This document shows positions 43,882-51,782 of a stretch of 64,000 nucleotides of DNA, piece after piece. Made by a program: the position numbers and the translations under genes. Source of the stretch: Methylobacterium nodulans ORS 2060 (lineage in GTDB: Bacteria > Pseudomonadota > Alphaproteobacteria > Rhizobiales > Beijerinckiaceae); contig NC_011894.1 in NCBI RefSeq assembly GCF_000022085.1, forward strand, positions 3,561,501 to 3,625,500, read 5' to 3'. Under the pieces are notes generated by a model that did no database searches, was not told the origin of the DNA, and saw only the letters and a program-made list of their open reading frames with translations. Positions within the stretch are counted from its first letter, which is position 1; each line of letters opens with the position of its first letter.

Positions 43882-43980
43882 TTGGCCAAGGTGTTGGTTC
43901 CCTCCTACTCCAGCTACAGCCATATCGAGCAGATGGCCTACGCCGTCGCCGAGGGCGCCCGGTCCGTGGGTGCCTCGACG
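43882..43980 (+). pseudogene. wrbA: wrbA 5' fragment
   Basis: A TTG frame behind an AGGAGG ribosome site reads [20 protein letters not shown] then [12 protein letters not shown]. This is the flavodoxin-fold start of the NAD(P)H:quinone oxidoreductase WrbA (typically AKVLVLYYSSYGHIE). It breaks off within 33 residues, where antisense selD sequence begins, so a recombination or deletion has removed the rest. Confidence 0.75.
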
Positions 43981-45017
43981 CGAAGCCCCGCCGGCCCCGC
44001 CTCGACCCGTCCGACGATCGCCGCGGCCGGGTAGCCGACGGTACGGATCCGGTCGCGGATCGCCGCGGCGCTTCGCTCCGCGCAGGCGATCAGCAGGCCG
44101 CCCGATGTCTGAGGGTCGGTGAGCAGGTGCCGGCGCCAGTCGGGGAAGCCCTCCGGCAGGGAGACGTCGCCGCCGAAGGCGCTCCAGTTGCGGTGCGAGG
44201 CCCCGGTCACAAAACCGTCGCGCGCCAGCGTCTCGGCCTGGGTCAGCAGGGGGACCACCCCAGCCTCGATCACCACCCGCAGGCCGGCGCCCCGGGCGAG
44301 TTCGAGACCGTGGCCGATGATCCCGAACCCGGTGACATCGGTCATGGCATGAATGTCCGCGTCCGCTGCCAGATCGGCGCCGACCCGGTTCAGCAGCGTC
44401 GTCGTCGCGACAAACTCGGCGTAGCCGTCCTCACCGAGACCGCTCCGCTTGATCGCCGCCGAGTAGACGCCGACGCCCACCGGCTTCGTGAGGATCAGGC
44501 GATCGCCGGCGCGCGCGTCGCTGTTGCGGCGCACCTGCTCCCGCCGGCAGGTGCCGATCACTGCGAGCCCGTAGATCGGCTCGGGTGTGTCGATCGAGTG
44601 CCCGCCCGCGATCGGGATGCCGGCCTCGGCGCAGAGGCTCGCCCCGCCGTCGAGGATCCGGGCGACGATCTCGGGCGGAAGCTTGCCCACCGGCACGCCG
44701 AGAATGGCAAGCGCCAAGAGGGGGCGTCCGCCCATCGCATAGACGTCCGAGATCGCGTTCGTCGCGGCGATGCGCCCAAAATCGTACGGATCGTCCACCA
44801 TCGGGGTGAAGAAATCAGTGGTGGCGATGAGGCAGGTGCCATCGTCGAGCGCCCAGACGGCGGCGTCGTCGGCGGTCTCGTTGCCGACGAGGAGCCGGTC
44901 GAATGCGCCGGAAGCGGGCTGGCGCGCGAGTAGGCTGCGCAGGATCGCCGGATCGAGCTTGCAGCCGCAGCCGCCCCCGTGGGCGAGGCTGGTAAGGCGG
45001 ACCGGTTCGGCGTTCAT
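43938..45017 (-). CDS. selD: Selenophosphate synthetase (selenide, water dikinase)
   Basis: The product has 359 residues. The N-terminal [13 protein letters not shown] carries the catalytic Cys and Lys of SelD (Cys rather than selenocysteine). [20 protein letters not shown] then [20 protein letters not shown] are the ATP and metal sites, and [13 protein letters not shown] and [13 protein letters not shown] are further hallmarks. It makes monoselenophosphate from selenide and ATP. Its start overlaps the HAD gene by ATGA. The last 15 or so residues ([11 protein letters not shown]) run into the wrbA relic and may not be original. No selA, selB, mnmH or senAB is in the window. Confidence 0.95.
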
Positions 45018-45859
45018 GGTTCCTCCGCTTGCATGCTGTGATCGAGCGCGGCCTCCCAGCGCAGGGTGGGCAGGCTGTAGAGACGTCCCGGCGCGTCGGG
45101 CAGCGGAAACGCGCCGTCCGGATCGGGCCCCACGTGGAGCGCCGCAAACCCCTGCGAGAGCGCCCCGGCGAGGTCGAGGGCCGGCGTGTCGCCGAGCCCG
45201 AGGACCTCGTCGGACCGGAACGAGCGCCCGGCTGTCTCGGCGGCGACCGCGAGGGCGTGCCGGTAGATGAAGGCGCCGGGCTTTCCGGTCTCGACCGCGA
45301 CACCGCCGAGGGCGCGGTAGCGCGCGGCGACGAGGCCGGCGAAGCGCAGGGTCCTGGCGCCGACCGTGGCCTGCAGGTCGGGATTCGTGCACAACAGGAG
45401 CAGGCCGCGGGAAACCGCGTCGCGCAGGCACGCGTCGAGTTCGTGGTCCTCGTCCGGATAGCCGGTGCAGGCGATGAGGTCCGGTTCCTCGCCGCCGGTC
45501 GCGAGCCGGCAGGGCAGTCCCTCGAACAGGATGCGGTCCGACTCCGTCCCGAGATGAAGCACGGTCCCGGGCTCCTGCTCGCGCAGGAAAGCGCGGGCGA
45601 CATCGCCCGCGCTGACAATCCCGTCGCAGACCTCCGCGATGCCCTTCGCGGCGAGACGCCGGGCGAGGTGCGGTCCTGGATCGGGCGCGTTCGAGGCCAG
45701 GATCACGGTTCCGCCTGCAGCCCGATGGGCCCGCAGGGCCGCGAGCGCCTCAGGGAAGACGCGCGTCGCGTCGTGCAGCACGCCGAACACGTCGCAGAGC
45801 AGGAGCGGGTAGCGGTCCGACAGGCCGCGCAGACCGGGAACCGGCACCAGCCCACCCAT
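45014..45859 (-). CDS. HAD-superfamily phosphatase-like protein, class IIA
   Basis: The product has 281 residues. Motif [15 protein letters not shown] has the nucleophilic Asp, with Phe-Gly in place of the usual second Asp region, as in the DVWGVLHDG type of class IIA HAD hydrolases (NagD-like). Motif II is [10 protein letters not shown], and motif III/IV is [16 protein letters not shown]. It sits between the radical SAM gene (2 bases) and selD (4-base overlap), so the three are one operon. It could dephosphorylate a metabolite of the selenium pathway; that is inference. Confidence 0.85.
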
Positions 45860-45861
45860 CG

Positions 45862-46902
45862 TCAGACCCGCGCCTGGACGATGGTGGTGCAGGCGCTCTC
45901 GAGCTTCGGCAGGTCGCGGGAGGCCGCCATCGTGACGGCGAGCGTCCGATCCTCCCCCCGCACGACGGGGCAGTAGGGATCGACCTGATCGAGCTTCCCC
46001 ATCAGCCGGCGGCGCCCAGCGCAGCCGCCGTGGCAGGTGGCCTCGTGGACGCAGCCGCGGCAGGGCTCCGGCAGCGCGCGGGCCGCCACGAAAGGATCGG
46101 TCGCCGTGATGGCGGGACCCACGTCGAGGAGCGCGTCGAGCCCCTGCCCGGCCCCGCCCCAGTAGACGCAGGGCTGCACGGTGCCCCGGGGCGTCACCCG
46201 CACAGTGCCGGCGCCACAGCCGCCGCGGCGGGGCGGCAGCCCGGCCATGGCTCGTACGAGCGGCTCGCCGATTGCGATCACGTCGGTCTCGGCGAAGAGC
46301 TGCGCGAAGCCGTCCCAGTACTCCTCGTAGGTGAGCGCGAAGGCGTCGCTGCGCACGGCCTGGTAGACGTTGATCCGCAGCGGCGCGTCGAAGCGCGCAG
46401 CGATCGCCGCGATCTCGTGCAGGCGGTCGTAGTTCGTGCGCATCATCACCGCAATGAAGGTCACGCCGACCCCGAGCCGACGGCAGCGGGCCGCCTGCTC
46501 CATCACGAGGTCCCAGTTGCCGGGTCCCCGCTGCGCGTCCTGCTCCTCACGCGTCGGATAATCGATCGAGAACTCGACATCCGCGAAGGCCTGGACTGCT
46601 TGATCGTCACTCACCGCGATGGAATGGCCGTTCGACGTGATGGTGAGCTTGAGGGGCTGGTCCCGCAGGAGATCCACGAACTCCGCGAAGCGCGGATGCA
46701 TACCGTTCTCGCCCGTGCCGAGATTGACCGAGCGCACCGGCAGGCGGTCGAGCACGGCGCGGACCTGCGCCACGTCGAGCCGGTCGACGCGGCTCGGATC
46801 GCGGTAGCAGAAGCTGCAGGCGAGATTGCACTCGTTCGTCAACCCGAGGCCGAGCGCGAAGCCCGCGTCGGGAGCGGAGGGACTTGCCGGAACAGCCGCC
46901 AT
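45862..46902 (-). CDS. Radical SAM enzyme with SPASM-like C-terminal cysteines
   Basis: The product has 346 residues. TNECNLACSFCYRDPSR supplies the CxxxCxxC ligands of the 4Fe-4S cluster, and VNLGTGENGMHPRFAEF is the GGE-like SAM-binding region. The C-terminal part has many Cys (GGCGAGTV, QPCVYWGG, PEPCRGCVHEATCHGGC, DPYCPV), like the auxiliary clusters of SPASM/twitch enzymes. It is the first gene of the operon with HAD and selD and is divergent from the methyltransferase. Substrate unknown. SPASM enzymes often act on peptides, but no precursor peptide gene is evident beside it. Confidence 0.9.
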   Translation of the reverse strand: MAAVPASPSAPDAGFALGLGLTNECNLACSFCYRDPSRVDRLDVAQVRAVLDRLPVRSVNLGTGENGMHPRFAEFVDLLRDQPLKLTITSNGHSIAVSDDQAVQAFADVEFSIDYPTREEQDAQRGPGNWDLVMEQAARCRRLGVGVTFIAVMMRTNYDRLHEIAAIAARFDAPLRINVYQAVRSDAFALTYEEYWDGFAQLFAETDVIAIGEPLVRAMAGLPPRRGGCGAGTVRVTPRGTVQPCVYWGGAGQGLDALLDVGPAITATDPFVAARALPEPCRGCVHEATCHGGCAGRRRLMGKLDQVDPYCPVVRGEDRTLAVTMAASRDLPKLESACTTIVQARV

Positions 46903-46997
46903 TCGGTCCTTCTCGTGCGCTTGAGGCCGGCAGGCGTCCGCGACGTCCGCCGCGTGTCAGCCTAGCATTGTCTCCCTTCGCGCGGAGGACCCTTCCG

Positions 46998-47819
46998 GTG
47001 ACAGCCGATCTCGAGCCGGACCAGCAGGCGGCCCGCTGGAACGATCACGTTTGCGTGTATGAGAGCGTGTTCGAGCCCTTCACGAACCGCTTCGCGGAGC
47101 GTGCGATCGAGGCACTCCTGCCAACACCCGGGACGCGCTGCCTCGACGTCGCAGCCGGAACGGGTGGCGCAGCCCTCCGGCTGGCGGCGAGGGGCGCCGA
47201 GGTCCTTGCCGTCGACGCGGCGCCCGCCATGTGCGCACGCATCTGCACCCGGGCCGCCTCGCTCGGCCTGCCTGTTACCGCCGCTGCCATGGACGCCGAG
47301 AGGCTGGCGCTGCCCGACCATATCGCCTCGGCGGCGCTGTCGATCTTCGGCATCATCCTGTGCCCAGACCCGGCCCGGGCGCTGCGCGAGATGGCCCGCG
47401 TCGTCCGGCCAGGGGGACAAATCGCCCTCGTCACCTGGACGGAGCCGCAGCACTACGAACTCGCGGCGCGCCTGATCGCCGCGAGCGCCGCTGTGCGCGG
47501 CACCCCGGCCCGGCCGGCCTCCCTCCCCGCCCAGCTGCGCTTCCGTGAGGAAGCCGCGTTCCGGGGCCTGTTCGCGGCGGCCGGCCTCACCGGCGAGCGG
47601 GTCGAGCGGATCGAGGCGCCGCTGCAGGCCCCGTCCGCACGCTGGCTTGCCGCGCGCCTCGCCTTCGCGCCCGGTATGGCGGCGATGCTCGCTGGCCAAG
47701 GCGAGGAGCGGGAGGCGGTCCTGGCCCGCTTCGTTGCGGAGCTCGAACGCGATTCCGGCACCGGCCCGGTCGCCTTGCGCGCGGTCGCCTTCCTGGGGGC
47801 GGCGCGGTGTCCCGGCTGA
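46998..47819 (+). CDS. Class I SAM-dependent methyltransferase
   Basis: The product has 273 residues. It starts with GTG at 46998, supported by GGAGGACCC upstream. The Rossmann-like SAM domain has CLDVAAGTGGAALRLAARG (motif I), VLAVDAAPAM (motif II Asp) and REMARVVRPGGQIALVTW. It resembles UbiE/Coq5-like small-molecule methyltransferases. It is divergent from the radical SAM-HAD-selD operon by 95 bases and precedes the selenate-type transporter. A selenol or related metabolite is a plausible substrate, but nothing in the sequence shows it. Confidence 0.88.
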   Translation: MTADLEPDQQAARWNDHVCVYESVFEPFTNRFAERAIEALLPTPGTRCLDVAAGTGGAALRLAARGAEVLAVDAAPAMCARICTRAASLGLPVTAAAMDAERLALPDHIASAALSIFGIILCPDPARALREMARVVRPGGQIALVTWTEPQHYELAARLIAASAAVRGTPARPASLPAQLRFREEAAFRGLFAAAGLTGERVERIEAPLQAPSARWLAARLAFAPGMAAMLAGQGEEREAVLARFVAELERDSGTGPVALRAVAFLGAARCPG

Positions 47820-47963
47820 ACCGATGCGCCCGCGTGTAACCGGAGGTGCGGACCCGCCGAATGAAGGGCGACGCGGCCGAAGCCTCGCAGGAACGCCCGA
47901 TGGCATCGCCCGGGATTTCCGCTACGCTCGGAAGCGGACGGCGCGTCAGGCGGAGGGCGTCGG

Positions 47964-48851
47964 ATGGTCGGGACGGCAAGCAGACGCTCGGTTCTGATCG
48001 GCCTTGGGTCGAGCCTCGCGGCGGGACACGCGCGTGCGCAAGCGAGCACGAAACCGCCCTTTGTGTTCACCGGCATTCCGGATCAGGACGAGAGCCGGCT
48101 GGTCGAGCGCTTCGGCAAGGTCGCGACCTACCTTGAGGACACGCTCGGCACGCCGGTGCGCTACATCCCGGTGAAGAGCTACCCGGCGGCGGTCACCGCC
48201 TTCACCAATGGGCAGGTGCAGCTCGCGTGGTTCGGCGGCTTCACGGGCGTGCAGGCGCGCAAGGCCAATCCGGGTGCGCAGGCGATCGCCCAGGGCGCCG
48301 AGGACGCCGCGTTCAAGACCTACTTCATCGCCAATGCCCAGGCTGGCTTGACCCGATCCAATGCCTTTCCCAAGGGAATCGAAGGCAAGACCTTCACCTT
48401 CGGCTCGCGGGCCTCGACATCCGGACGGCTGATGCCGGAGCACTTCATCCGCGAGGCCTTCCCCGGCAAGACGCCGGAGGAGATCTTCGCCCGGGTTGGA
48501 TTCTCGGGCGACCACAGCCGCACGATCCAGCTCGTGCAGTCCGGCGCCTTCGAGGTCGGCGCCCTCGACTACGCAGTCTTCGACCTCGACAGCAAGGCCG
48601 GCAAGGTCGACCCGAAGCGTGTGCAGGTCATCTGGGAGAGCCCGCCCTATCCGGACTACCAGTGGACCGTGCGCGGCAACATCGACGCGATCTACGGTGC
48701 GGGCTTCACCGAGCGGCTCCGGGCGGCGCTCCTCGGCATCACGGATCCGGCCATCCTCGCACCCTTCGGGCGCTCGCGCTTCATCCCGGTGTCGAACGAC
48801 GCCTACCTCCCCATCGAGCGGGTGGGGAAGTCGACTGGCCTCCTCGACTGA
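47964..48851 (+). CDS. PhnD-like substrate-binding protein, putative selenate/selenium transporter
   Basis: The product has 295 residues with a twin-arginine-like signal (ASRRSVLIGLGSSLAAGHAR). The periplasmic-binding fold of the phosphonate/phosphite PhnD family follows: FTGIPDQDESRLVERFGKVA, LGTPVRYIPVKSYPAAVTAF and VQLAWFGGFTGVQARKANPG. The FTGIPDQDE start and YPAAVTAF match the group annotated as putative selenate ABC transporter binding proteins, which usually sit near selD. The transported oxyanion has not been proven here. Confidence 0.85.
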   Translation: MVGTASRRSVLIGLGSSLAAGHARAQASTKPPFVFTGIPDQDESRLVERFGKVATYLEDTLGTPVRYIPVKSYPAAVTAFTNGQVQLAWFGGFTGVQARKANPGAQAIAQGAEDAAFKTYFIANAQAGLTRSNAFPKGIEGKTFTFGSRASTSGRLMPEHFIREAFPGKTPEEIFARVGFSGDHSRTIQLVQSGAFEVGALDYAVFDLDSKAGKVDPKRVQVIWESPPYPDYQWTVRGNIDAIYGAGFTERLRAALLGITDPAILAPFGRSRFIPVSNDAYLPIERVGKSTGLLD

Positions 48852-48862
48852 CCGCGGGCGAG

Positions 48863-49543
48863 ATGCGCGGCGCGGCGGAACCCGAGATCGTGCTGTCGGG
48901 CGCGACCGCGGCCTACGAGGGACGGCCGGTCCTGTTCGGCATCGATCTCACCATCCGGGCCGGCGAGCGGATCGCCGTGCTGGGTCGGTCGGGCGCCGGC
49001 AAGTCCACGCTGCTCGGGCTGCTCCACGCCGCCGCCCGAGACCGTGTCGCGCTGATCCCGCAGGCGAGCGCGCTCGTGCGCACGCTCTCGGTGTTCCACA
49101 ACGTCTACATGGGCCGGCTCGACCGGCGCACGACCTTTCACAACCTGCGCACCCTCGCGCTGCCCGCCCGGGCCGACCTGGACGAGGTCGCGGAGGTGCT
49201 GGGGCGTGTTGGACTCGCCGACAAGCTGCGGGCCAAGGCGGGCGAATTGTCGGGTGGGCAGCAGCAGCGCGTCTCCGTGGCGCGGGCGCTTTATAATGGG
49301 CGGCCGATCCTGATCGGGGACGAGCCGGTCTCCGCCCTCGACCGCACGCAGGGCGCGCGCATCCTCGACCACCTCGCCGCGCAGCACGGGACCCTGGTGC
49401 TGGCGCTGCACGACGTGGCGCTGGCCCTGCGGCACACGGACCGGATCCTGGTGCTCGATGCGGGCCACCTCGTGCTCGACGCGGCCGCCCGTGACCTCGA
49501 CGAGGCGGCACTCCGGCCCTTCTACGCGGCGGCGCCCCGATGA
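48863..49543 (+). CDS. ABC transporter ATP-binding protein, PhnC-like
   Basis: The product has 226 residues. Walker A is GRSGAGKSTL, the signature is ELSGGQQQRVSVARAL, Walker B is ILIGDEPVSALD, and the switch His is in LVLALHDVAL. NVYMGRLDRRTT fits the phosphonate-type PhnC subfamily. It starts 11 bases after the binding-protein gene and overlaps the permease start by four bases (ATGA). It energises uptake through the downstream permease. Confidence 0.92.
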   Translation: MRGAAEPEIVLSGATAAYEGRPVLFGIDLTIRAGERIAVLGRSGAGKSTLLGLLHAAARDRVALIPQASALVRTLSVFHNVYMGRLDRRTTFHNLRTLALPARADLDEVAEVLGRVGLADKLRAKAGELSGGQQQRVSVARALYNGRPILIGDEPVSALDRTQGARILDHLAAQHGTLVLALHDVALALRHTDRILVLDAGHLVLDAAARDLDEAALRPFYAAAPR

Positions 49544-51159
49544 TCGCGCGCCGGCGCTCGACCTGGGGCTACGCCGCGGTGAGCCGCTGGTTCCTGCTCC
49601 TCGCCGCCGCTGCGCTGCTGACCGCGGATCTCGGGGTGGCGAGCCTCCACCCCTGGGCCGACCTCCGGCGGCTCGTAAGCGGGCTCGTCCGTCCCGACTT
49701 CCTGACCGTCGAGATCCGGAGCATCGCGTACACGGTCGCCTTCGGCTTCCTCGGGATCGCGCTCGGCGCCGGGCTCGGCTTCGTGCTGGCGATCCCGTAT
49801 CCGCGCTTCCGCCTCGTGCGCCTCGCCTGCGCGGGCGTGCGTGCCGTGCACGAACTGTTTTGGGCGCTCCTGTTGATGCAGGTCTTCGGCCTCTCGGCCA
49901 CGACCGGCATCCTGGCGATCGGGCTGCCCTATGCGGGCATCTGCGCGAAGGTCTACGCTGAGATCCTCGAAGAGGCCGACCTCTCGGCCCTGCGCGTCTT
50001 GCCGCGCGGCACGGGCGCGGTGTCGGCCTTCGCCTATGCGCGGCTCCCGGAGGTCGCGGCGGCGTTCCGGCACTACACCCTCTACCGTTTCGAATGCGCC
50101 CTGCGCTCGACGCTGGTGCTCGGCTTCATCGGCCTGCCGACACTCGGCTTCTACCTCGATTCGGCGTTCCGCCAGGGCCGCTACGCGGAAGCGGGCGCGC
50201 TCTTGCTGATCGTCTACGCGCTCGTCGGCACGCGGCGCCTGTGGGTGCGGCCCGCGACGGTGCCGGTCCTCCTCGTCGGCAGCCTGCTCGTGCTTCCGAG
50301 CACGGTCGGTTCCACGGAGGTCTCGGCTAATCTCGTGCGCTTCCTCACGCACGACATCGTGCCGGCACCGCTGCGCGGCGCGGATCTCGCCGATCCGCAG
50401 ACCTGGACGCGTCTCGCCACCTGGCTCGAGCCGATCGTGCTGCGCCAGATCCTTCCCGGTGCGGCGCAGACCTTGGTGCTCGCCCAGATCGCCCTCGTCG
50501 CGACGGGGCTTGGGGCGCTCCTGCTCTTTCCCCTCGTCTCACGCCGGTTCGCCGGACGGATGGGGCAACCGCTCGGCCGCGCGCTCCTCGTCGTGGTCCG
50601 CTCCACCCCTGAATACATGCTGGCCTATCTGCTCCTGCAGGTCCTCGGCCCGTCGATGCTGCCGGCGATCCTGGCCCTGACGATCCACAATGCCGGGATC
50701 ATCGGGTACCTGATGGGACGCCACGCCGACGCGCTCCCCTACCGGGCTGACGCCCCCTCGGGGCTCAACCTCTACGCCTACGAGACGGTGCCGCGTCTCT
50801 ACGGCCAGTTCCTCGCCTACCTGCTCTACCGCTGGGAATTGATCCTGCGCGAGAGCGCGATCTTCGGCATCCTCGGCGTCGCGACGCTCGGCTTCTATGT
50901 CGACGCGGCGATCGCGGAACTGCGCCTTGACGTGGCTGTGGTCCTGATCCTGGCCTCGGCGCTGCTGGCGATGGCCGTCGACGCCCTGTCGCGCGGGCTG
51001 CGCCGATCGCTGCGCCTCACCTCGCTGCCGACCCGGCTCTCCGAACCGGTGCGCTCCCTCCAGACTGGGACCACCTGCCCGGCACCCGACGAAGCCCCCT
51101 GGACGCAAGGACGAGGACGATGCGGACCGATCCCTTCTCCGACACGTGGCAGTTCCTGA
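49540..51159 (+). CDS. Fused double PhnE-like ABC permease
   Basis: The product has 539 residues, twice the size of a normal PhnE. Two permease modules are fused. The first spans about 50-265 with LPRGTGAVSAFAYARLPEVA and a following FIGLPTLGFYLDSAFRQGRY. The second spans about 310-510 with YAYETVPRLYGQFLAYLLYR and ILGVATLGFYVDAAIAELRL. Each carries the cytoplasmic coupling loop. One polypeptide can therefore form the complete membrane channel for the ATPase. The C-terminal tail overlaps the next gene by 40 bases. Confidence 0.9.
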   Translation: MIARRRSTWGYAAVSRWFLLLAAAALLTADLGVASLHPWADLRRLVSGLVRPDFLTVEIRSIAYTVAFGFLGIALGAGLGFVLAIPYPRFRLVRLACAGVRAVHELFWALLLMQVFGLSATTGILAIGLPYAGICAKVYAEILEEADLSALRVLPRGTGAVSAFAYARLPEVAAAFRHYTLYRFECALRSTLVLGFIGLPTLGFYLDSAFRQGRYAEAGALLLIVYALVGTRRLWVRPATVPVLLVGSLLVLPSTVGSTEVSANLVRFLTHDIVPAPLRGADLADPQTWTRLATWLEPIVLRQILPGAAQTLVLAQIALVATGLGALLLFPLVSRRFAGRMGQPLGRALLVVVRSTPEYMLAYLLLQVLGPSMLPAILALTIHNAGIIGYLMGRHADALPYRADAPSGLNLYAYETVPRLYGQFLAYLLYRWELILRESAIFGILGVATLGFYVDAAIAELRLDVAVVLILASALLAMAVDALSRGLRRSLRLTSLPTRLSEPVRSLQTGTTCPAPDEAPWTQGRGRCGPIPSPTRGSS

Positions 51160-51782
51160 TCGCCGCGCAGGACGACCAACTCGCCCTCGGCCCGTGGCGC
51201 TGGATCCTGGTCGGCCTATTCGTGCTCCTGCTGCTTGGCAGCCTGATGGTCGCGGCACGCGAGTGGATCGTCGATCCCGCCCAGCGCACCGGCCGCGACC
51301 TTGTCATGTGGCTGGTTCGCACCGCCGTCGGCGGCATGTGGTTCCAGGCCATCTTCTGGAAGCTCCCACTCTTCACTACCAACAACGGACTCCACTACTG
51401 GACGTCACAGGAGGTGAAGTACGCCGCCTTCCAGATCCATCGGGATCTCGTGGCGCAGGTGCTGCTGCCGACGCCACAGTTCTACGTCCTGAACGTGGTG
51501 GTGTTCGCGACCGAGCTGGCCTTCGCGATCTCGCTGATGCTCGGAATCGGGGTCCGCGTGGCCGGTGCCATCGGCGTGCTGTTCCTGGCCCAGCTCTGGC
51601 TTGGCCTGTACCAACACCCGCAGGAATGGCCGTGGACCTACATCTTCCTCGGCGGCCTGATGGGCCTGTTCAGTGTCTGCGGTGCGGGACGCAGCCTCGG
51701 CCTCGACGCCGCGCTTCGCCGAGAGTATCCGCTTACAATGACGAATGACGTAATGAGGGCTTTCGTTCGACTCGCCACCTGA
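51120..51782 (+). CDS. DoxX-like/TQO-small-subunit-like membrane protein
   Basis: The product has 220 residues with four to five membrane helices (WILVGLFVLLLLGSLMVAAR; LMWLVRT to FQAIFWKLP; VLNVVVFATELAFAISLMLG; VLFLAQLWLGLYQHPQEWPW). The pattern R-x2-G-x-M-W-F-Q-A-x-F-W-K-L-P and GLYQHPQEWPWTYIFL resembles DoxX/DoxD-type quinol-linked proteins. It overlaps the permease gene end by 40 bases, so it is co-transcribed with the transporter. A redox role in handling the imported oxyanion is possible but unproven. Confidence 0.8.
   Translation: MRTDPFSDTWQFLIAAQDDQLALGPWRWILVGLFVLLLLGSLMVAAREWIVDPAQRTGRDLVMWLVRTAVGGMWFQAIFWKLPLFTTNNGLHYWTSQEVKYAAFQIHRDLVAQVLLPTPQFYVLNVVVFATELAFAISLMLGIGVRVAGAIGVLFLAQLWLGLYQHPQEWPWTYIFLGGLMGLFSVCGAGRSLGLDAALRREYPLTMTNDVMRAFVRLAT

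Follow-up and report, generated by a model that had tools for sequence, protein, structure and literature searches.

Orphan SelDs, selenide, water dikinases (selenophosphate synthetases) in organisms without the selenium traits known at the time, were first singled out by Haft and Self 2008, and Methylobacterium nodulans was later named among the organisms that have one (Lin 2015, PMC5322559; Peng 2016, PMC5029168). As far as the main texts of the two later papers go, some orphan selD genes are possibly pseudogenes or unrelated to selenium; the candidates near orphan selD given by Peng 2016 are an isochorismatase-like protein, an ATP-binding cassette (ABC) ATPase and a cysteine desulfurase-like protein, and the wording 'radical SAM' is absent from both main texts. 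Here we describe the surroundings of selD in M. nodulans ORS 2060 (8,839,022 bp in 8 contigs, among them C7 of 7,772,460 bp and C1 of 458,070 bp). The stretch analysed, called the window below, comprises 64,000 nucleotides (C7:3561501-3625500). In it selD lies in one operon with the gene of a radical S-adenosylmethionine (SAM) enzyme, rSAM1, opposite a transporter of the PhnD/PhnC/PhnE type (PhnDCE). The cluster is likely to be linked to selenium. It is, in our estimate, rather probable that the locus represents half of a so far undescribed pathway dependent on selenophosphate, which makes an organoselenium small molecule or a glycoconjugate and whose other half lies 211 kb away.

The selenoneine pathway (SenA, SenB, SenC/SelD), which as summarised names no radical SAM enzyme (PMC9814287), is likewise a SelD-headed cluster for a small selenium molecule. 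Of the 77 rSAM1 loci compared below, 14 have SenA and 12 have SenB at a distance of at most 10 kb from rSAM1; unlike that system, M. nodulans has no SenA or SenB over cut-off. In the arsenosugar route a methyltransferase works together with a radical SAM enzyme responsible for adding a 5'-deoxyadenosyl group, with a nucleoside phosphorylase and with glycosyltransferases of the DUF2064 and GT2 families. As in that route (ArsM, ArsS, TIGR04282/TIGR04283), a methyltransferase and a radical SAM enzyme are encoded in the window, and DUF2064, GT2 and nucleoside phosphorylase proteins are encoded elsewhere in the M. nodulans genome or in relatives. In contrast to it, rSAM1 is a SPASM enzyme far from ArsS, the GT2 proteins miss TIGR04283 (51.6, 45.9 and 58.3 versus 182), and selD is a neighbour in many loci.

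The link to selenium is best seen in the company that rSAM1 keeps. The genomes compared number 99: M. nodulans itself (G000), 58 others of the genus and 40 of the order. Nine of the 59 genus genomes carry rSAM1, and SelD is present in all nine, as against 21 of the 50 others (Fisher p 0.002, kinship ignored). The two genes are adjacent or one gene apart in seven of the nine genomes, M. nodulans included, and in six of these seven PhnDCE sits across rSAM1 from SelD; in G026 and G056 SelD is found elsewhere in the genome, away from rSAM1. More widely, 77 rSAM1 loci were compared, many of them ending at contig ends, with neighbours called by tblastn at score limits of our choosing. SelD or a fused SelD lies within 10 kb of rSAM1 in 30 of the 77. 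Through 50 of the loci, 49 rSAM1-carrying genomes were reached, and 43 of these have SelD over cut-off, the background being about 30% of genomes (Haft and Self 2008); the 27 loci left out of this count all bear titles of Alphaproteobacteria. The tree of rSAM1 splits into two deep branches, and on each of them there are loci with SelD or SenA within 10 kb of the gene (in Rubrobacter and in the Alphaproteobacteria). Two SelDs each are present in G044 and G037, where the copy in the cluster belongs to a different clade from its counterpart. A chance neighbourhood, the alternative named in the preliminary description of this DNA, is rejected as the first choice, given how often the two genes are adjacent or one gene apart in the genus and that 43 of the 49 genomes hold both: in relatives, the radical SAM gene stays with selD.

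The selD gene is over cut-off in 32 of the 99 genomes, 30 of them in the genus, and the window copy is the single one in M. nodulans. Its product carries the catalytic Cys/Sec and Lys motif (GCGCK in E. coli) near the N-terminus, and is predicted to make selenophosphate. The dN/dS ratio (nonsynonymous to synonymous substitution rates) against three relatives is 0.17-0.21, a pairwise value that averages both branches. SelA is over cut-off in 30 of the 99 genomes, which are 28 of the 30 selD-carrying genus genomes and two of the order. Intact selA was not found in the M. nodulans genome, where fragments alone were detected (33.9 and 21.6 bits versus 267.9). A remnant of about 460 bp with shifting frames lies at L148:7630-8088 (G000:C7:1181629-1182087), and its pieces are 38-71% identical to the SelA of G022. 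As selA is reduced to a broken remnant, M. nodulans has probably lost the selenocysteine system and kept selD intact.

The other users of selenophosphate that were searched for give a similar result. There is no match to mnmH in the M. nodulans genome (20 of 36 first-look candidates scored); the gene is over cut-off in none of the 99 genomes and weakly matched in three. SenA and senB exceed their cut-offs together, in 10 of the 99 genomes, all in the genus, and M. nodulans is not among them: its best SenB match reaches 43.8 versus 300 (20 of 27 candidates scored) and its best SenA match 333.6 versus 420, the latter being probably EgtB. Two selD-carrying genus genomes have no selA over cut-off: M. 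nodulans, and G047, in which both senAB and the rSAM cluster are present. Among the 30 genus genomes with selD, M. nodulans alone is without selA, mnmH, senA and senB, and the rSAM cluster is present in it. The preliminary description had seen none of these genes in the window; the rest of the genome agrees, with no intact selA, no mnmH and neither senA nor senB over cut-off.

The other half of the proposed pathway would be the DUF2064-GT87-rSAM2-GT2 module at L155:7912-11767 (G000:C7:3390911-3394766). Its radical SAM enzyme, rSAM2, is present in all nine rSAM1-carrying genus genomes and in two of the 50 others (p 4e-9), and in G026 and G056 a module of the same type adjoins rSAM1. The window holds no match to the DUF2064, GT87, rSAM2 and GT2 proteins of locus L039. 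The M. nodulans DUF2064 protein scores just under the TIGR04282 cut-off (132.8 versus 134). The models nearest to rSAM2 are those of tungsten-cofactor and Geo metal maturase radical SAM enzymes, under whose cut-offs it remains.

The rSAM1 proteins constitute a strongly conserved SPASM family without a name, present in several phyla. The radical SAM/SPASM signature consists of CX3CX2C and a pattern of seven cysteines. In the rSAM1 alignment Cys25, Cys29 and Cys32 are kept in 65 of 65 rows, as are Cys229, Cys245, Cys284, Cys290, Cys294 and Cys311 of the SPASM part, and Cys281 is kept in 64 rows, the remaining row having an X. Outside the SPASM pattern, residues Cys-Thr-Thr 338-340 near the C-terminus are at least 97% invariant, and Cys140 is kept in 64 of the 65 rows; these are possible extra ligands or catalytic residues. 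The window rSAM1 reaches no equivalog cut-off in NCBIfam, and in this it differs from MftC and other SPASM enzymes (SuiB, anSME, PqqE, BlsE). Assignment as a mycofactocin maturase (TIGR03962) was rejected at 75.3 versus 265. A maturase of ribosomally synthesised and post-translationally modified peptides was also rejected, as no small open reading frame conserved across phyla lies within 3 kb of rSAM1 in the 47 of 77 loci scanned, a scan that was not exhaustive; the largest group of such frames comprises five loci, from Rubrobacteraceae and Chloroflexia. An NCBIfam radical SAM model named after Rv1681 matches weakly, 39 of 52 rSAM1 members at E 1e-5, and a binding-protein-like model named after Rv1680 matches the window PhnD weakly (44.9 of 400 bits). 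As Rv1680 and Rv1681 are adjacent by locus number, mycobacteria may also pair a binding protein with a radical SAM enzyme. No published tie of the rSAM1 family to SelD was found among the literature matches listed, which cover titles and the starts of abstracts, with subscription journals mostly uncovered; a survey in the selenoneine (Nature 2022) or ovoselenol (Nature Chemistry 2024) paper may have met the cluster.

The genes of the window cluster are listed in Table 1. A tight operon of rSAM1, HAD and SelD, as given in the preliminary description, is confirmed on the minus strand by the coordinates (a 2 bp gap between rSAM1 and HAD, a 4 bp overlap between HAD and SelD) and by the family scores. 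The divergent plus-strand set described with it, a methyltransferase, PhnD, PhnC, a two-part PhnE and a small DoxX-like membrane protein, is present as well; the window DoxX-like protein has no Pfam match of its own at E 0.1. Of three relatives from the same setting elsewhere, two match: that of L063 reaches DoxX with 25.0 versus 23.6 and DoxD with 27.3 versus 22.7, that of L106 reaches DoxD with 23.8 versus 22.7, and a third, in L054, falls just short of DoxX (20.7 versus a gathering score of 23.6). Scans of the window with Rfam and for tRNA gave no matches.

Table 1. Genes of the selD-rSAM1 cluster, with positions in the window; scores are given against the cut-off of the named model.
Feature	Position	Strand	Basis
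selD, selenide water dikinase (selenophosphate synthetase), 359 aa	43938..45017	-	NF002098 483.7 vs 299; TIGR00476 414.2 vs 125
HAD class IIA hydrolase, accessory	45014..45859	-	TIGR01459 114.5 vs 103.75
rSAM1, radical SAM/SPASM enzyme, centre of conserved cluster	45862..46902	-	PF04055; SPASM TIGR04085 28.4 vs 27
class I SAM methyltransferase	46998..47819	+	PF08241 62.7 vs 21.2; frame open from 46884, GTG 46998 likely start
PhnD-like substrate-binding protein	47964..48851	+	TIGR04553 344.3 vs 250
PhnC-like ABC ATPase, ATG at 48863	48863..49543	+	PF00005 80.4 vs 25; TIGR02315 147.4, under cut-off 266.1
PhnE-like permease, two joined halves	49540..51159	+	TIGR01097 186.9 (cut-off 216.7), two stretches
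DoxX/DoxD-like membrane protein	51120..51782	+	no own Pfam match at E 0.1; two of three relatives in same setting match DoxX or DoxD

Across the 77 loci the neighbours of rSAM1 are, besides the SelD, SenA and SenB genes mentioned above, a DoxX-like protein (58 loci), GT2 (55), methyltransferases of more than one family (50), a GT87-like protein (46), DUF2064 (45), PhnD (33), PhnE (32), PhnC (28), a nucleoside phosphorylase of the purine or methylthioadenosine (MTA) type (27), a second radical SAM enzyme (25), an uncharacterised protein (21), a flavin adenine dinucleotide (FAD) oxidoreductase adjoining SelD (18) and HAD (9). The preliminary description had counted the HAD protein as part of the set. 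It is rejected as a core enzyme, since its nine loci are all Methylobacteriaceae by title and it is not found beside rSAM1 and SelD in G022 and G036. Several neighbours reach NCBIfam names: the DUF2064 protein of L039 is TIGR04282 (162 versus 134), a model labelled arsenosugar biosynthesis whose cut-off the L106 protein also passes; the SenA of L039 is NF041186 (510 versus 420) and the SenB of L049 is TIGR04348 (406 versus 300); a fused protein of L054 is both TIGR03169 (460 versus 310) and TIGR00476 (297 versus 125). An FAD oxidoreductase stretch stands directly before SelD at L054:3509-5860 and in 17 further loci of other Alphaproteobacteria (TIGR03169 was scanned in L054 alone), and in 16 loci the joined frames group as a single protein, about 800 residues long.

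The gene order in the Rubrobacteraceae locus L106 is SenB, SenA, two genes, PhnE-C-D, one gene, an MTA-phosphorylase-like gene, methyltransferase, rSAM1, GT2, DUF2064 and the DoxX-like gene. SenA or SenB is found within 10 kb of rSAM1 in some loci of Methylobacterium, Rubrobacter and others, and the rSAM1 locus L080 (Blastocatellia) has both. Many Acidobacteriota loci retain methyltransferase, DoxX-like and glycosyltransferase genes with rSAM1. In G036 a PhnD remnant alone is left (L151:7949-8223); the 19 kb examined gave no PhnC, PhnE or methyltransferase, and the DoxX-like protein, rSAM1 and SelD are retained.

The following observations weigh against a selenium pathway at this locus. Six of the 49 rSAM1-carrying genomes (G100, G105, G114, G128, G138 and G141), whose loci are all titled as metagenome-assembled genomes, have no SelD over cut-off; G128 holds a 116-bit SelD piece at a contig end. 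Seven of the nine rSAM1-carrying genus genomes also have selA (p 0.07), so that the association with SelD within the genus cannot be separated from the use of selenocysteine, and because many SelDs of the rSAM1-carrying genomes reached through the loci contain an in-frame TGA, those genomes probably use selenocysteine as well. The rSAM1 loci of Acidobacteriota show neither SelD nor PhnD nearby, and the SelD of the genomes that carry these loci, which frequently contains a TGA in frame, may be there for selenocysteine. As rSAM1 was found in one of 297 Acidobacteriota genomes, the centre itself, the phylum is unusable as a contrast to the count of 43 in 49. G012 and G020 carry rSAM2 with its glycosyltransferases and have no SelD over cut-off. 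The window holds no match to the phosphorylase of L039, and rSAM1 is rejected as an ArsS (TIGR04167, 31.5 bits versus 300). The negative result for selA, mnmH, senA and senB in M. nodulans does not extend to selB, SECIS (selenocysteine insertion sequence) elements, tRNA-Sec, yqeB/yqeC of the selenium-dependent molybdenum hydroxylase cofactor, or the ovoselenol enzyme that forms the histidine C-Se bond, which were not searched for genome-wide. Finally, the PhnD1 of Synechococcus (PMC10284923) and the PhnD of Prochlorococcus (PMC5700983) are described as binding phosphite best.

The loci of Acidobacteriota and the two genomes that have the rSAM2 module without SelD would be accounted for if the radical SAM and glycosyltransferase genes were unrelated to selenium, serving for example a redox cofactor or an envelope glycan, and SelD merely travelled with them in a selenium island; that a mycofactocin maturase is the best NCBIfam model for the window rSAM points in the same direction. 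We consider this unlikely, since M. nodulans retains an intact selD without any tested use, SelD accompanies rSAM1 in nine of nine genus genomes and in 43 of 49 overall, and in the rSAM1 tree each of the two deep branches includes loci with selenium genes close by. Could rSAM1 and its neighbours instead modify or glycosylate the selenoneine made by SenA and SenB? These two proteins do occur in the rSAM1 loci, and senAB is present in five of the nine rSAM1-carrying genus genomes as against five of the 50 others (p 0.005, kinship ignored), yet G000, G022, G026 and G036 have rSAM1 without SenA or SenB over cut-off and five genus genomes have senAB without rSAM1, so that such a role appears quite improbable. 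The selA remnant, and the grouping of the window SelD with the SelDs of the selA-carrying genomes G036, G022 and G019, might suggest that SelD has simply outlived the selenocysteine system and that its neighbourhood has no shared function. Against this, selD is intact and constrained, as judged from the branch-averaged dN/dS, its frame overlaps that of HAD, and G047, also without selA over cut-off, retains SelD with the same cluster; a mere leftover is thus very improbable. The selenophosphate-dependent pathway, with its two halves, is the explanation that we prefer.

The transporter can be considered separately from rSAM1. In 15 of the 30 selD-carrying genus genomes, M. nodulans included, PhnDCE and SelD are no more than 5 kb apart, some of the stretches ending at contig ends. 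As four of these genomes (G011, G014, G016 and G032) have neither rSAM1 nor senAB, the transporter appears tied to selenium activation rather than to rSAM1. The putative selenate type assigned to it in the preliminary description is not supported: 'selenate' is the NCBIfam label of the hypothetical equivalog TIGR04553 and not a tested specificity, and the two solved members of the family bind phosphite best. These are the picocyanobacterial phosphite/phosphate PhnDs 7s6g and 5lq5, whose aligned stretches score 337.7 and 295.2 versus 250. Nine of the ten binding-site or cap residues named in the main text for Prochlorococcus PhnD (PMC5700983) are identical in the window PhnD. The window protein differs in that the tenth, Asn176, corresponds to Asp202, and in that its genes lie near selD; selenium is unmentioned in the main texts of PMC10284923 and PMC5700983. 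The picocyanobacterial PhnD1 transporter is called paradoxical in a 2023 abstract (PMC10284923). As the PhnD pocket suits an anion with three oxygens, selenite would fit better than selenate and, from this sequence comparison, would be the likelier of the two as a substrate of the window PhnDCE.

The gene set, its conservation, the co-occurrence with SelD and the absence of the tested selenium users are observed; from them we infer each chemical step, the order of the steps and the product of the pathway. PhnDCE would import a small oxyanion, which is more likely to be selenite than selenate and would be reduced to selenide. SelD would then turn the selenide into selenophosphate. Subsequently, rSAM1 and the methyltransferase would build or rework a carbon-selenium product, and the glycosyltransferase module would join this product to, or build it into, a sugar or a polyprenyl-linked glycan. 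The DoxX-like protein would act at the membrane, probably in a redox reaction. The phosphorylase may merely clear 5'-deoxyadenosine, a by-product of both radical SAM enzymes. By analogy with arsenosugars, a tentative and rather doubtful version of this scheme is a route to a selenosugar or seleno-glycoconjugate built by radical SAM chemistry, in which the selenium imported by PhnDCE would be methylated, the SPASM enzyme would attach it to a sugar, derived from SAM or from elsewhere, and glycosylation would take place at the membrane. The undescribed SelD-dependent cluster of the preliminary description thus survives as a cluster, as the tested users were not found and rSAM1 is kept with selD; the HAD protein as a core component and selenate as the substrate are not supported.

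According to a 2026 review, a selenium transport system that is both specific and of high affinity has yet to be identified in prokaryotes (PMC13188914); the cluster offers a candidate importer of selenium oxyanions. The orphan SelD, published without a pathway in 2015 and 2016, is now tied to a conserved gene set in the type strain. The selenosugar route, if true, would be a further bacterial use of selenophosphate and would explain the orphan SelD of M. nodulans. It would span the Alphaproteobacteria, Rubrobacter and, if the SelD there serves it, the Acidobacteriota.

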